Source of the DNA: Myxococcaceae bacterium
Lineage (GTDB): Bacteria > Myxococcota > Myxococcia > Myxococcales > Myxococcaceae
DNA length: 55,141 nt
Assembly (NCBI GenBank): GCA_019694575.1
Contig: JAIBBR010000015.1
Coordinates: 1-55,141 of the forward strand
Direction of reading: 5' to 3'
Positions 6,717-41,303 of the stretch are shown piece after piece; the first letter of the stretch is position 1; every line of letters begins with the position of its first letter. A model generated the notes under the pieces. It was not told the DNA's origin. It was given only the letters and a program-made list of their open reading frames with translations, and searched no databases. Both the position numbers and the translations under genes were made by a program.

Positions 6717-7160
6717 TTAAAATCCGGTTCGTCGCTCCAGGTGCGTTTCGGGGGTGAGCGATTCAATCGCCACGTCACACCCCGCCATGGCGCGCCGAAT
6801 ATCGTCGAGTGCCGTTGAGCTCAGCCAAAAGCCCTGCACCATGAAGAGTGAGTATGTCTTGTTGTTCGCGGTCACCATCACCGTGAAACGCTCGAAAACT
6901 GAAGGCCCGTCGTTCGACAGCCATACGCGCGTGATGTCTGAAAAGGGAACTGACCACTGTGACTGGGCCCAGTGCCCATATGCGACGTGCAGCTTTTGCC
7001 GCGTAACGTCGAAGAGATAAGTGTTCTTGGGTGGCCAGAGAATGAGTTCCGGAGCGAGCAAGAACCCAGACAGAAACAAATTGAGCCAGCTTTGGCGGGT
7101 GGTGAACCGCGCACTTCCGTCAACAAGCTTTGCGCGACGCGTAATGAGAGAAAGATTCAT
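6717..7160 (-). CDS. Hypothetical protein, possibly PH-like
   Basis: A 147-residue product I do not recognise. It has one hydrophobic stretch near residue 25-40 (WLNLFLSGFLLAPELILW), then alternating beta-like segments (KNTYLFDVTRQKLHVAYG, WSVPFSDITRVWLS, ERFTVMVTANNKTYSLFMVQ) and a final helix (STALDDIRRAMAG). This pattern resembles bacterial PH-like domains that follow a membrane hairpin, but that is inference. GC content is below that of the neighbours. There is no obvious ribosome site; instead a 7-bp hairpin (7161-7180) abuts the start codon. Confidence 0.55.
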   Translation of the reverse strand: MNLSLITRRAKLVDGSARFTTRQSWLNLFLSGFLLAPELILWPPKNTYLFDVTRQKLHVAYGHWAQSQWSVPFSDITRVWLSNDGPSVFERFTVMVTANNKTYSLFMVQGFWLSSTALDDIRRAMAGCDVAIESLTPETHLERRTGF

Positions 7161-7180
7161 GGCGTGAAGTGACTCACGCC
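7161..7180. promoter_or_regulatory. Inverted repeat directly before the start codon of the 6717-7160 gene
   Basis: GGCGTGA and TCACGCC are separated by six bases, and the repeat touches the ATG at 7158-7160. In the minus-strand mRNA this would fold into a hairpin immediately 5' of the start codon; as DNA it could be an operator. Confidence 0.4.
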
Positions 7181-7397
7181 AGCTTACGAAGTCGGCGAGC
7201 CTCTATTTCACGAGAGGCAGTGGTGCAGCGTGTTGCGCGCAGTCAATCAACCCGTCGAAGTCGTCACGGCCGCTTTGACGCTCACGCAACCAGCCTTGGT
7301 CGATGCAGGGGCAATGAACTACTAATTTGGTCATTATTAGTAGCTTGTTAGTAGTTGGCTCGTTCGAGCGTAAGTGTCCGCCAATACTTAATTTTCG

Positions 7398-7450
7398 CCC
7401 ACTTCATGCGAGGACAACGGTGGAATCGTGGGCGGCATCGGGGTGCTCGA
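7398..7450 (-). repeat. Left copy of 53-bp direct repeat: detached copy of a GGDEF-gene 3' end
   Basis: Read on the minus strand this encodes SSTPMPPTIPPLSSHEVGEN followed by TAA (7390-7392). The intact gene at 8602-9522 ends SSAPMPPTIPPLSSHEVGNE. The two copies (7398-7450 and 8612-8664) match at 48 of 53 positions. Of the five differences, three are synonymous third-codon changes and two together make one Ala/Thr change, so the piece diverged as coding sequence rather than by random decay. The frame closes at a TAG about 100 bases upstream, so no gene remains here. Confidence 0.75.
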
Positions 7451-7553
7451 GGCGGAGGTCACTTGGGTGTTGAGAATCTGCCGATGCAACCGGACTGCGT
7501 AGGTCACGTCACAGATATACTTTGGCTAATCATTCCTCTGAAGGAGTTTGACA

Positions 7554-8561
7554 ATGGTGCGCGGGTACAAGCCCTTAACCAGAACATTCAAAGAACAGCC
7601 TGGAGCTCGTCACTTCAATAAGAAGGCCTTGCTACCAGCGGTAGGCGAAACGAATTTGCCCCCGGCTGTGAAGAACACCGCTGAGGGTGAGGTGTTGACA
7701 ACACGACCGTTAAAAACGCCAAAGGAGGGATGGCGCATCGTCAAAGGAGAGACGCTGGATAATCTCAATTTTACCGATGGGCTAACGGTTTTATGGACAC
7801 AAGTTCATGCCCAAAGCCAGCCGCGAAACTGGAGTGTCGAAGCGCCGGCTTCGTTGGCGTCACGCAGCCCTCGTGCCATTCATGAAGAGCATTGGAGCAA
7901 AGTCGATGGGGGTAACACCGATTTTCGGGCAGGCTTTTACGGTGAACACCCGCAATTGCAGGTTCATTTGCAGGGGCCCAGGGGTCACTTGCATGTCGGC
8001 GGCAATATCCCCGAGAACGCTTCCGCTAACCTTTGGGTGGCGTTCAAACCCCATCAGGGGAATGAAATTACTTTCCTTCGCGACGCCACAAACACGAGGT
8101 GGCTCATTGACGGTGTGTCTGTCTCGCCAGCCCAAGCTCAAGTGCACATCAACAAGATTGGTGGTTTTGAGTTGCATCCCGATGCGCACCGAGCCGACCA
8201 GTTTTTGAAGGCGCTCTCCAGGCTCGACCCTGAACCCATGTTTCAGACCTTGATTCGCGATCCGAAAGTGCTTTCGAACCAGAACACCAAAACTTCCGAG
8301 CCTCCCACGACGGTTGCACCAACGGCTGCTGCTCCGGTTATCAATATGGGTAGCTCCGAAGTCCGGGCGATGCCTGACGGCAGTTTTTTGGTCAAGACAC
8401 AGCCCAATTACGGTGACGTACTGAGAACCATCAGCAACGGCAAAATGTTGAAAGGTGTTCTCATCACTCCAAATGGAAACGGGACCTCGACTGTAAAAGT
8501 TAATCAGCCGTCTCCCAGCGTAGTTGGCAAAGGCATGTCATACATTGGCCTGGTGATGTGA
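7554..8561 (+). CDS. Orphan protein of unknown function inside the repeat-flanked unit
   Basis: The 335-residue product matches no family I recognise. There is no signal peptide and no membrane segment. The N-terminal 70 residues are polar; a central region rich in Trp, His and beta-like segments (GWRIVKGETLDNLNF, GPRGHLHVGGNIP, ANLWVAFKPHQGNEITFL) suggests a compact, lectin- or cupin-like fold; a Thr/Pro/Ala linker follows near 245-265 and then a short C-terminal beta region (DGSFLVKTQPNYGDVLR). The start is ATG 7554 with a strong ribosome site AAGGAG seven bases before. Base composition (30-36 G/C per 60 in four lines counted) is lower than in the surrounding genes. It is flanked by the 53-bp direct repeat, which suggests it arrived as a unit. 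Confidence 0.7.
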   Translation: MVRGYKPLTRTFKEQPGARHFNKKALLPAVGETNLPPAVKNTAEGEVLTTRPLKTPKEGWRIVKGETLDNLNFTDGLTVLWTQVHAQSQPRNWSVEAPASLASRSPRAIHEEHWSKVDGGNTDFRAGFYGEHPQLQVHLQGPRGHLHVGGNIPENASANLWVAFKPHQGNEITFLRDATNTRWLIDGVSVSPAQAQVHINKIGGFELHPDAHRADQFLKALSRLDPEPMFQTLIRDPKVLSNQNTKTSEPPTTVAPTAAAPVINMGSSEVRAMPDGSFLVKTQPNYGDVLRTISNGKMLKGVLITPNGNGTSTVKVNQPSPSVVGKGMSYIGLVM

Positions 8562-8582
8562 AGAGGCCTGGTGATGTGAAGA
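8547..8582 (+). repeat. Perfect 18-bp tandem duplication across a stop codon
   Basis: GGCCTGGTGATGTGAAGA occurs twice in direct succession (8547-8564 and 8565-8582). The first copy contains the stop codon of the orphan gene. Both copies are identical, so the duplication is recent. It keeps the encoded C-terminus GLVM unchanged. Confidence 0.9.
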
Positions 8583-8601
8583 TGAGCCAGCAAACGTGGG
8601 G

Positions 8602-9522
8602 CTACTCGTTCCCCACTTCATGCGACGACAAGGGTGGAATCGTCGGCGGCATCGGCGCGCTCGACACGTCATTCACATATTCCACCCGGTTGCCGCCTTT
8701 GGCCATCGCCGCGTGCAGCCCGTCGTTCGCCTGACGAAACAAATCAGAGAAGCCGTACTCGCGACCGGGCATGCCTGAGGCGACTCCCGCCGAGAGCGTG
8801 GGCGCGAGCAATTTCTCACCCACTTGCAGCGTAGAACGCGAAACCCGTTCGCACACCCGCCGCGCCACAATCAGCGAGCCCGCCAAGTCGGTGTGCGGCA
8901 TGAGCAACAGCACCCGGTCGCTGCCGTACTGCACGGGAAAGTCGGTGTCGCGCAACGAGCGGCGAATCGCCAACGCCAAGCCGCCAGTCAATTGGCTGTG
9001 CAACTCGCCGTCTAACTCGGCTTCGAGCGGGTCAAACCCGAGCAGCGCCAACGCGAGGGGAAAGCCATAGCGTCGCGCGCGCTTCACTTCGATGAAGAGC
9101 ACCTCTTTGAAGTGGGTGAACGTATAGAAGTTGGTGAGAGGGTCGGTAATGCCTTCTCCGGGGCGCGGCTTTGGGCTTGAAGCGCGCGTCACTTTCGGCT
9201 TCACCTCGGTGAGCTCGGCGAGCCGCACGCGCAAATCATTTGGCGACACCGGCATGGGCAAAATGCCGTCGGCGTACGGCGCCTTGAAGCCCTTCTGCTG
9301 CGCCGCGAAGAGCACCACGCGAGGCGACATTTTTCGCACGTCACGCGCCAACTTCGAGGCTGACTTGGCCGACGGCCCGAGCACCACCAGCTGCTCGCCA
9401 TCGAGCGCTTCGGCGCTTTGCGCGTCACTGACTTTGAGCCCGGCCTTCTTCAAGCCCGCTGCGATTGCCTTGCGATGTTGCTCTTTGGGCTCGAACACCG
9501 CGGCCCACTTGAAACGCTTCAT
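8602..9522 (-). CDS. Degenerate receiver-GGDEF protein
   Basis: The 306-residue protein has an N-terminal receiver-like domain (about 1-105: WAAVFEPKEQHRKAIAAGL, LVVLGPS, PRVVLFAAQ) in which the usual acidic pocket and phospho-acceptor aspartate are not evident. A GGDEF-like domain follows (about 125-285), starting TDPLTNFYTFTHFKEVL. The catalytic motif is replaced by YGSDRVLLL, so it is probably not a cyclase; it may bind a nucleotide or a partner. The tail SSAPMPPTIPPLSSHEVG is Pro/Ser rich and is the part duplicated at 7398-7450. ATG 9522 is chosen because GAGGGTG lies just upstream; a GTG two codons earlier is possible. Confidence 0.8.
   Translation of the reverse strand: MKRFKWAAVFEPKEQHRKAIAAGLKKAGLKVSDAQSAEALDGEQLVVLGPSAKSASKLARDVRKMSPRVVLFAAQQKGFKAPYADGILPMPVSPNDLRVRLAELTEVKPKVTRASSPKPRPGEGITDPLTNFYTFTHFKEVLFIEVKRARRYGFPLALALLGFDPLEAELDGELHSQLTGGLALAIRRSLRDTDFPVQYGSDRVLLLMPHTDLAGSLIVARRVCERVSRSTLQVGEKLLAPTLSAGVASGMPGREYGFSDLFRQANDGLHAAMAKGGNRVEYVNDVSSAPMPPTIPPLSSHEVGNE
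8612..8664 (-). repeat. Right copy of 53-bp direct repeat (3' end of the GGDEF-like gene)
   Basis: This is the in-place copy, encoding the last 18 residues before the final Asn-Glu and stop of the gene at 8602-9522. The partner is at 7398-7450, 1214 bp away in the same orientation. Outside the 53 bases the two sites do not match, apart from both continuing to an in-frame stop within a few codons. Confidence 0.8.
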
Positions 9523-9600
9523 CGGCACCCTCGGGTAATTTCTAAGTTCCCAAGCTTATGCGCGCTTCACCACCGGGAGGATTATTTCTAGAGTCGTGGT

Positions 9601-39110: not shown

Positions 39111-41303
39111 TTAGCCCTTCAGCTTGCGAACCAGCGTCGTCAACGCGGTTTGCGTTTTGTGCAGCCACGACTGGCGGCGGCGCGAGAGGTTGACCCGGGG
39201 CCCCACCCCACGCATGCCGTCGATGGCTGCTTGCAGCTCGGCCATGCTCTCGAAACGGTGCGAGGGGTCTTTGTCGAGACAGCGGGCCAGCAGCCGGCGC
39301 AAATCAGTCGAAATCACCTCACCCGAAGCCGATTCTGCGGGCAACGGCTTGGGTGGTTTCATCAGCAGTTGCGCCAACAGCAGCGACACCGTAGGCGCGC
39401 TGAAGGGCACCCGGCCGGCCACCATGCGGTAGAGCACCGTACCCAACGAATAAATGTCAGTGCGCGCGTCGACCCGGTTGCCCGCTGCTTGCTCGGGCGC
39501 CATGTACGAAGGCGTGCCCACCAGCACCCCGGTTTGCGTCGCTTCGAGGGTCGACGCTTCGCCCCAACCCTCGGGGTTCAGCTTGGCCACGCCGAAGTCG
39601 AGCACCTTGACGAAGTCTTCGCCTTTCTTGCCGGTGAGAAAAATATTGTCGGGCTTCATGTCGCGGTGCACCACGCCCAGCTCGTGCGCCGCGGCCAACG
39701 CTGAACAGACTTGCGATGTGATGTGCAGCGCACGGCTGATGGTCACCGTGCCTTCGCGCAGGGTGTCGCCCAGTGTCTTGCCGCGCAATGGCTCCATCAC
39801 GCAGCCCATGCGGCCGTCTTCGGTTTTCACCAGGTCGAACATCTGCACGATGTGGGGGTGGTTGATACGTGCGACCGCGCGGGCCTCGTCAACGAAGCGG
39901 CGCAAGTGACGTGGGTTGGTCGCCAAGTCGGGCTTCAGCACCTTGATGGCGACGTCGTGCCCTTGGGCGATGTGCTTGCCCAAGTACACATGGCCCATGC
40001 CGCCTTGCCCGAGCAGGTCGAGAATCTCGTAGTCGCCCATGCGGTCTTGCAGCTCGACGCCTTGAATTGCTTCCGGCGCGTTTTTCAGCTCAGCTGGCAT
40101 TTCAGACGAGTCGAGTAATTCAGCCGATGCTTCGGGCACCGCAGACGTAGGCCCCAGGGGAATGCGCCAGTTGCGCGTCGCTCCGGGCGGTGACAACACT
40201 GGCAGAGGTTCAATGGGTGGTGGCGTGGGTGCGGCTATTAGCGGAGGTATTGCCGGCACCGGTGTGGGCGTATTTTTCAGCGGCGCTGCCGGCGGAGCGT
40301 GCGGCACCTTGGCCAGCACGGGCACCGGCGTCGCGGGGGGGGGCGTGGGCGCGTAGAGCAGCGGCCCCGAAGGCGGCACCGAGCGCCTCGTCAAAGGTAG
40401 CGTCGGCTGCGACAACGGCTGTGCCAAAACGTCAGGAGGCAGCGGTTGGGTGATACGGCCGGGCGCTGGCTTTTTTTGTCCTCCCGCGGCAGTGCGCAAG
40501 GCGCGGCCTTGTTCGGCAGCGGCCTCGCGCAGCGCTAGCACGACTTCGGGAGCCGACTGGTAACGATACGCCCGGTCGCGCGCCAAACACTTGCGCACGA
40601 TGGGTTCTAAAAAAGCCACGTCGCGCGGCAGCGACTTAAGCTGGGCCTTCAAATGCAGCCGGCGGGTCTCCATAGAGCTTGCCCCACGATAAGGTGGAAA
40701 ACCGGTCAGCATTTCGTGCATCAAAATGCCCAACCCATAAATGTCTGAGAGTGCGTCGCCGCGGCGGCCGCAAATGCGCTCGGGGGCCAGGTACGCGGGT
40801 CTCACCAATTCAGTGTGCGTCGGTATCGAGCGAATGGAGCGAAACAGTGTCAAGCCGGTGTCGAGCAGCCGCGGTTGCTCCCAGCGATTGGCGTCGATAA
40901 ACACGTACTGCGGCGCCAAGTTGCCGTGACGTTGCCCATTTTGATGCAGGTAGTGCAACGCTTCGCAGAGCGGTATCAGCACCGCCACCGCTGCTTGTGC
41001 GCCGAGGGGGCCGTTTTCCTGCATCCACACTGAGAGTGGCTGGCCTTCAATCGACTCGCTCAAGGTGTAGAGGCGGCCTTCTTTGTCACAGTGCACGTCG
41101 CGGCGCGGGAGCAGGTTGGGGTGATGCAGCAGTTGCAGCCCATGCGCTTGGTCTAAAAAACGCCCGTAGATTTCGGGGTCTTTCGCCAACTCTGAATGCA
41201 TGCGCTCGACCACGGCGCGACGACCCGAGCTCGGGTCGCGAACGACGAATGCTTCCGCCGCCGAGCCTTCGGCGAGCTTGGTTTCGAAGTTGAACTTTTT
41301 CAC
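39111..41303 (-). CDS. Tandem pseudokinase - Ser/Thr kinase
   Basis: The 730-residue protein has two kinase folds. The first (about 1-265) lacks the catalytic elements: the glycine loop is AEGSAAEAF, the ATP lysine is missing (RRAVVER), and HRDLKPEN is replaced by RHGNLAPQ; DTG and APE (YLAPERI) remain. A 150-residue Pro-rich linker follows. The second domain (about 425-690) is complete: LGQGGMGHVYLG, VAIKVLK, VVHRDMKPDNIFL, LDFGVAKL, PSYMAPEQA. There is no membrane segment. The pseudokinase probably regulates the active domain, as in eukaryotic JAK. GTG 41303 is chosen since it gives a compact start (KKFNFETKLAEGS); a TTG at 41357 adds 18 poorly conserved-looking residues. Confidence 0.87.
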   Translation of the reverse strand: MKKFNFETKLAEGSAAEAFVVRDPSSGRRAVVERMHSELAKDPEIYGRFLDQAHGLQLLHHPNLLPRRDVHCDKEGRLYTLSESIEGQPLSVWMQENGPLGAQAAVAVLIPLCEALHYLHQNGQRHGNLAPQYVFIDANRWEQPRLLDTGLTLFRSIRSIPTHTELVRPAYLAPERICGRRGDALSDIYGLGILMHEMLTGFPPYRGASSMETRRLHLKAQLKSLPRDVAFLEPIVRKCLARDRAYRYQSAPEVVLALREAAAEQGRALRTAAGGQKKPAPGRITQPLPPDVLAQPLSQPTLPLTRRSVPPSGPLLYAPTPPPATPVPVLAKVPHAPPAAPLKNTPTPVPAIPPLIAAPTPPPIEPLPVLSPPGATRNWRIPLGPTSAVPEASAELLDSSEMPAELKNAPEAIQGVELQDRMGDYEILDLLGQGGMGHVYLGKHIAQGHDVAIKVLKPDLATNPRHLRRFVDEARAVARINHPHIVQMFDLVKTEDGRMGCVMEPLRGKTLGDTLREGTVTISRALHITSQVCSALAAAHELGVVHRDMKPDNIFLTGKKGEDFVKVLDFGVAKLNPEGWGEASTLEATQTGVLVGTPSYMAPEQAAGNRVDARTDIYSLGTVLYRMVAGRVPFSAPTVSLLLAQLLMKPPKPLPAESASGEVISTDLRRLLARCLDKDPSHRFESMAELQAAIDGMRGVGPRVNLSRRRQSWLHKTQTALTTLVRKLKG

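Follow-up and report, generated by a model that had tools for sequence, protein, structure and literature searches.

The repeat pair at the end of the GGDEF gene

The window (the whole stretch of DNA analysed, 55,141 nucleotides) contains a gene for a GGDEF-domain protein at positions 8602-9525 on the minus strand. Its GGDEF-like identity, proposed in an earlier sequence-only reading of this DNA, was confirmed by a match to PF00990 (E = 2.1e-12), and the gene has orthologues in relatives. We took an ATG as the start; the open reading frame opens with a GTG at 9528. The frame is intact down to the stop codon at 8602-8604, which means that one border of the unit described below carries a restored gene end.

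The 3' end of this gene is present twice, as a direct repeat of 53 bp. The proximal copy at 8612-8664 (minus strand, SSAPMPPTIPPLSSHEVG) forms the 3'-terminal coding sequence of the GGDEF gene. The distal copy at 7398-7450 (minus strand, SSTPMPPTIPPLSSHEVG) is a displaced or duplicated gene end with an in-frame stop at 7388-7390. The copies are identical at 48 of 53 positions and their starts are spaced by 1,214 bp. In a self-blastn of the whole window this was the strongest short repeat in 55 kb (E = 8.6e-12), far above chance, and a search of the own genome returned these two copies only, with the next matches at E values of at least 0.5. The longest exact match within the repeat is shorter than 20 nt. 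When read on the minus strand, the GGDEF gene ends in SSAPMPPTIPPLSSHEVGNE plus the stop (8664-8602) and the detached copy in SSTPMPPTIPPLSSHEVGEN plus the stop (7450-7388). Both tails are read in one frame and have their stop at the same codon, even though similarity is gone from the last 10 nt, up to the end of the stop codon. Four of the five differences within the 53 bp lie at third codon positions. The repeat, the common C-terminal tail running to a stop and the mostly synonymous differences had all been described in the sequence-only reading, and all of them held.

The distal copy is a detached gene end with no gene attached upstream. The frame upstream of it stays open for only 25 further codons, and when we tested whether the sequence just upstream belongs to another gene, no relatives of it were found. 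A sensitive tblastn search with the GGDEF protein against positions 7161-8611 recovered the tail alone (E = 6e-9), and the next match had an E value of 0.5. There is no inverted-repeat pair at the two borders of the unit; the 53-bp direct repeat lies there instead, and it is far longer than a transposon target site. The terminal inverted repeats and the short target duplication of a transposon or insertion sequence are missing. Elsewhere in the window, a 94-bp direct repeat with 66% identity (39415-39508 and 40702-40795, E = 9e-6) probably represents related coding sequence.

Between the repeat copies lies the inserted segment proper, 1,161 bp at 7451-8611. It holds a single credible gene, an orphan of 335 amino acids at 7554-8561 on the plus strand, which is convergent to the host gene. 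Its ATG at 7554 is preceded by the ribosome-binding site GAAGGAG (7540-7546, plus strand), with AAGGAG 7 nt before the ATG. A perfect 18-bp tandem duplication (GGCCTGGTGATGTGAAGA, twice) at the 3' end of the gene spans the stop codon (8547-8582, plus strand). The GC content of this cargo gene is 0.53, compared with 0.61 for the window and 0.63 for the GGDEF gene, and its GC3 is 0.58 against 0.79 in the GGDEF gene. The low-GC zone is wider than the unit, since it takes in the outer neighbour past the distal copy, an orphan gene for 147 amino acids at 6717-7160 on the minus strand (GC 0.55), as well as its flanks and the spacers past the distal tail. The earlier description of one lower-GC gene with a strong ribosome site and no recombinase was thus correct in each item, but the low GC does not stop at the borders of the unit. 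Just past the distal tail, at 7316-7358, we also noted a palindromic AT-rich element (AACTACTAATTTGGTCATTATTAGTAG...TTAGTAGTT), which was not found elsewhere in the stretches of the own genome that were scanned.

The product of the cargo gene had no significant match in Pfam, NCBIfam, PADLOC, PHROGs or PDB, and a search of 59 related genomes and of plasmids, phages, viral contigs and a bacterial genome collection gave no relatives of the gene. Relatives of the outer gene were not found either. The only open reading frame inside the unit has no significant family match, and there is no recombinase, transposase or integrase. The cargo is a single gene that matched no restriction-modification or other addiction-type family, and no toxin-antitoxin feature was recognised in it; an AlphaFold model calculated without an alignment had a mean pLDDT of 32.6 and was unusable.

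The locus in related genomes

Orthologues of the GGDEF protein with 50-68% identity are present in most matching members of the family. Their carriers are Myxococcaceae, mostly MAGs labelled Archangium, Myxococcus or Myxococcales. Some of the orthologues end in related proline-rich sequences of the P-x-IPP type, such as DAPTPPAIPPLSR or PAPPAVPPVSG directly before the stop, which shows that the tail is native to the GGDEF gene. No second GGDEF copy was found beside the gene in the relatives examined, apart from one distant GGDEF match on the opposite strand (L037), and the tail sequence was not found in viral contigs.

On the 5' side of the GGDEF gene, the neighbourhood (a HEAT-repeat protein, an AmiA/amidase-like protein and beyond) is kept in many relatives. 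On the 3' side, where the tail lies, synteny is lost in all relatives compared. These relatives are at family level only, with no genome of the same genus among them. Neither an empty site nor a donor locus was found among them, and the proposed donor tail was seen in no genome. The outer gene, being an orphan, gave no lead to an empty site either. The comparison with relatives, which the sequence-only reading had suggested as a check, therefore gave kept synteny on one side and lost synteny on the other, but no empty site.

Gene ends duplicated elsewhere in the genome

We scanned stretches of the own genome for short repeats. They total 1.78 Mb including overlaps, about one third of the 5.28-Mb genome. 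The anatomy seen in the window recurs at three further genes (L130, L126 and L180) and partly at a fourth (L127). In each of the three, the 3' end of a gene through its stop codon is copied 1.1-2.0 kb downstream. At L130 (contig 35, 1638-1703 and 2754-2819) it is the last 66 bp of an SPFH/SHOCT gene including the stop, copied 1,116 bp downstream with VapB-VapC between the copies, which are identical at 64 of 66 positions; both changes are synonymous. The outer gene here is likewise an orphan, and this unit also yields no empty site. At L180 (contig 173, 5193-5259 and 7179-7243) a formamidopyrimidine-DNA glycosylase-like gene (7181-8095, minus strand) has its 65-67-bp end repeated 1,986 bp downstream in a frameshifted copy, and HipB-HipA lie between. 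At L126 (contig 31, 468-513 and 1628-1673) a gene encoding a 1,012-aa protein has its last 46 bp copied 1,160 bp downstream, and the distal copy carries a nonsense codon. Low-GC uncharacterised genes lie between these copies, and for one of the genes, of 252 amino acids, three family members contain weak relatives (29-35% identity). In all three units the repeat stops 0-2 nt past the stop codon.

The partial case, L127 (contig 32, 7918-8043 and 10824-10949), is a 126-bp repeat with 98% identity around 2.8 kb of uncharacterised genes. It combines 22 nt from the very end of an FAD-linked oxidase gene with the 104 nt downstream of that gene. About 90 nt are exact, and given this long exact stretch the repeat could be an assembly join.

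The tails of the four host genes in the full units are unrelated in sequence. The segments between the copies held no recognisable recombinase in these four units, and inspection of the junctions gave no common border sequence. The gene-end pairs are strictly in direct orientation, and the only inverted pair in the own-genome scan at E <= 1e-5 was a palindromic dispersed repeat. When 42-nt pieces of 1,508 genes were scanned for nearby copies, 3' ends and some pieces past the stop codon were found, and there were none for 5' ends or mid-gene segments. The anatomy, its recurrence, the position at gene 3' ends and the direct orientation of the pairs are direct observations. A control scan of 0.63 Mb from relatives gave no clear gene-end unit, a sample too small for the difference to count.

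Several other pairs were set aside. Those at L225 and L132 are tRNA genes by sequence, while L143, L215 and a second pair at L130 are dispersed short repeats. The remaining ones were domain repeats within one gene or pairs that are palindromic or on the 5' side (L178, L166). One dispersed repeat, TTTCCAAACTTCCAAA, occurred 14 times in the stretches read (L130, L215, L119, L127 and others), sometimes as spaced pairs around genes, and looks like a short repetitive or MITE-like element. Another, GTCAGACTTTAC, occurred 15 times (L143, L121, L136, L151 and others), often paired, and may be akin to repeats linked to Y1-type transposases. At L114 (contig 19, 3737-3780 and 8464-8507) we observed a 44-bp internal fragment (95%) of a glutamyl-tRNA synthetase-type gene. 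A PIN-domain toxin gene directly precedes this fragment, and the intact synthetase-type gene is 4.7 kb away.

We also looked at how the two tails of a unit differ. When the pairs of the window, L130 and L126 are pooled, third codon positions account for 9 of 12 differences. This excess has P = 0.004 against random placement and P = 0.04 when free drift of one copy alone is modelled. It weakly suggests that both tails evolved as coding DNA, as the sequence-only reading had claimed for the window. The nonsense codon at L126 and the frameshift at L180, both in distal copies, speak against two coding tails, and we retain this claim in a weakened form. The differences are few, and it is possible that the copies were identical at birth and one then drifted.

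How the units may have arisen

We propose that a segment of about 1.2 kb, holding the orphan gene and its own GGDEF tail, was inserted at the 3' end of the GGDEF gene through host recombination, and we give this account an even chance of being right. The incoming DNA would have carried its own version of the last ~20 codons of the gene. This tail would have replaced and restored the GGDEF end, and the resident tail would have been displaced to the far side, a relic without function. The joining was most probably ordinary host recombination: a circular molecule may have entered by a single RecA-type crossover, or one end may have joined by homology while the other was closed illegitimately. A relative sharing the gene but having different downstream DNA could have been the source, which fits either option. 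The same process would have acted at other gene ends of the genome and brought in toxin-antitoxin modules in two cases. The insertion event, the donor and the recombination route are what we infer here, as are all steps past the anatomy and its recurrence.

We counted in favour of insertion the direct repeat with one functional and one detached end, the lower-GC cargo without relatives, the absence of a GGDEF relic, the recurrence, the restriction of nearby copies to gene 3' ends in direct orientation and the third-position excess. Against insertion with a donor tail, we counted that nucleotide identity in the window stops 10 nt short of the end of the stop codon, that the differences are few and that the family-level relatives gave neither empty site nor donor locus. 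If the orthologous end of a donor joined by homology, this would account for the loss of similarity at the stop codon and for the mostly synonymous changes. Repeats ending 0-2 nt past the stop, as in L130, L126 and L180, are expected if homology was limited to the shared gene end. The sequence-only reading had placed a one-gene unit inside the 3' end of a gene, the old end being left on the other side. The layout, the recurrence and the loss of synteny on the tail side agree with this, and it is the best reading of the anatomy, strengthened by the recurrence, partly supported and as yet unproven. The integrase-type scheme to which it had been likened is unlikely since the tails differ from gene to gene and there is no recombinase, and our preference is for entry by homologous recombination or by one-sided illegitimate recombination, rather than by a dedicated integrase.

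A staggered break with fill-in could instead have duplicated the resident gene end, with the end of a donor gene uninvolved. The break-and-fill-in step is something we infer. The repeats vary little in length (46-67 bp, with one of 126 bp), the nonsense codon at L126 and the frameshift at L180 are as free drift of the distal copies predicts, and two papers describe such insertions for Helicobacter pylori restriction-modification genes (PMC1643837, PMC3154945). A long target duplication explains the narrow length range but not the boundary at the stop codon: three of the four full units have repeats ending no more than 2 nt from it, a regularity that a random staggered break leaves unexplained. 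The third-position excess is also above the expectation for one drifting copy (P = 0.04). We consider this account unlikely, but serious enough to be kept in view. It is improbable that only the ~50-bp tail was copied, as filler DNA in the repair of a nearby break templated by the gene end, with the gene in between already there. The synthetase-type fragment at L114 (44 bp, internal, 4.7 kb off) looks like such a piece, but this account does not tell why the copies are 3' ends, lie downstream and bracket orphan or toxin-antitoxin genes.

The tails could also be the attL and attR of small elements served by a recombinase in trans, or of remnants of larger elements whose recombinase has been lost. 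Integrase-mediated entry into gene ends usually restores the gene 3' end through the stop codon, and this is the outcome seen here. Four host genes with unrelated tails do not fit any single integrase, and with neither a recombinase between the copies nor a common border sequence in the four units we find site-specific integration very improbable. The one detached gene end might be what is left of a second, tandem copy of the complete GGDEF gene after replacement of its body. Such an ancestral duplicate, which the sequence-only reading had named as the case against itself, was not supported: there is no trace of a GGDEF body between the copies, where tblastn had recovered only the tail, and no second copy beside the gene in relatives, the L037 match aside. 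We can scarcely credit it. An assembly artefact might be suspected in a metagenome-derived or fragmented genome, as this one is in 220 contigs and its relatives are mostly MAGs. Exact matches below 20 nt in the window are too short for a k-mer join, and the pattern is found at four separate loci, which makes an artefact barely plausible.

Insertion with long target duplication of restriction-modification genes in Helicobacter pylori was reportedly described by Nobusato et al. in 2000. 'Insertion with long target duplication' is the term used for restriction-modification genes of this species (PMC1643837, PMC3154945), and its link with such genes is called frequent (PMC1643837). The unit in the window and the recurrent units are closest to this type of insertion and are best seen as a variant of it. 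Both consist of a small gene unit between long direct repeats, with selfish-type cargo being frequent. Unlike in Helicobacter pylori, the repeats here are gene 3' ends that reach to the stop codon, and the cargo that can be named, at the loci outside the window, is toxin-antitoxin rather than restriction-modification. The empty allele in Helicobacter pylori was seen by strain comparison, whereas the unit in the window is known from one genome.

In Microcystis aeruginosa, a toxin-antitoxin module lies between two 152-bp direct repeats behind the orthocaspase gene MaOC1 (PMC7935541). As here, the module is downstream of a host gene and between two repeats of the same orientation, but the Microcystis repeats are identical, start 14 bp past the stop codon and contain inverted repeats, whereas ours are divergent and mostly coding gene ends (PMC7935541). 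Integrative elements of the 3'-end type (attL/attR) resemble our units in having a functional end at one border and a displaced end at the other. They differ in that our units have no recombinase, a different tail for each host gene and a size of ~1 kb. Homology-facilitated illegitimate recombination, in which one end joins by homology and the other illegitimately, captures foreign DNA and is a mechanism observed in the laboratory (PMC3240628). It may also fit the joining proposed here.

Toxin-antitoxin modules and the gene-end signature

It has long been asked how small gene units get into chromosomes without transposases or integrases. In this one genome, duplicated gene 3' ends repeatedly flank toxin-antitoxin and orphan genes, a concrete signature that can be counted and tested. 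The duplicated end tells the place of entry, the displaced copy and possibly the source species. The main interest lies in several units of one genome having this gene-end signature in common.

It is conceivable, though we regard it as doubtful, that small selfish units (toxin-antitoxin modules and orphan genes) spread in this myxobacterial lineage by using a conserved gene 3' end as an address. Each unit would carry one gene end, enter the orthologous end by homologous recombination, restore it and be able to leave as a circle between the tails. Any conserved gene end could then be a landing site free of integrases.

Two of the four full units contain toxin-antitoxin pairs (VapBC at L130 and HipBA at L180). 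At other HipA loci, none was bracketed by direct repeats within 1.5-kb flanks. Among ten PIN/HipA loci examined, direct repeats bracket three (in one case weakly), compared with 0.9% of random intervals; this enrichment of toxin-antitoxin genes between direct repeats was noticed post hoc and is suggestive only.
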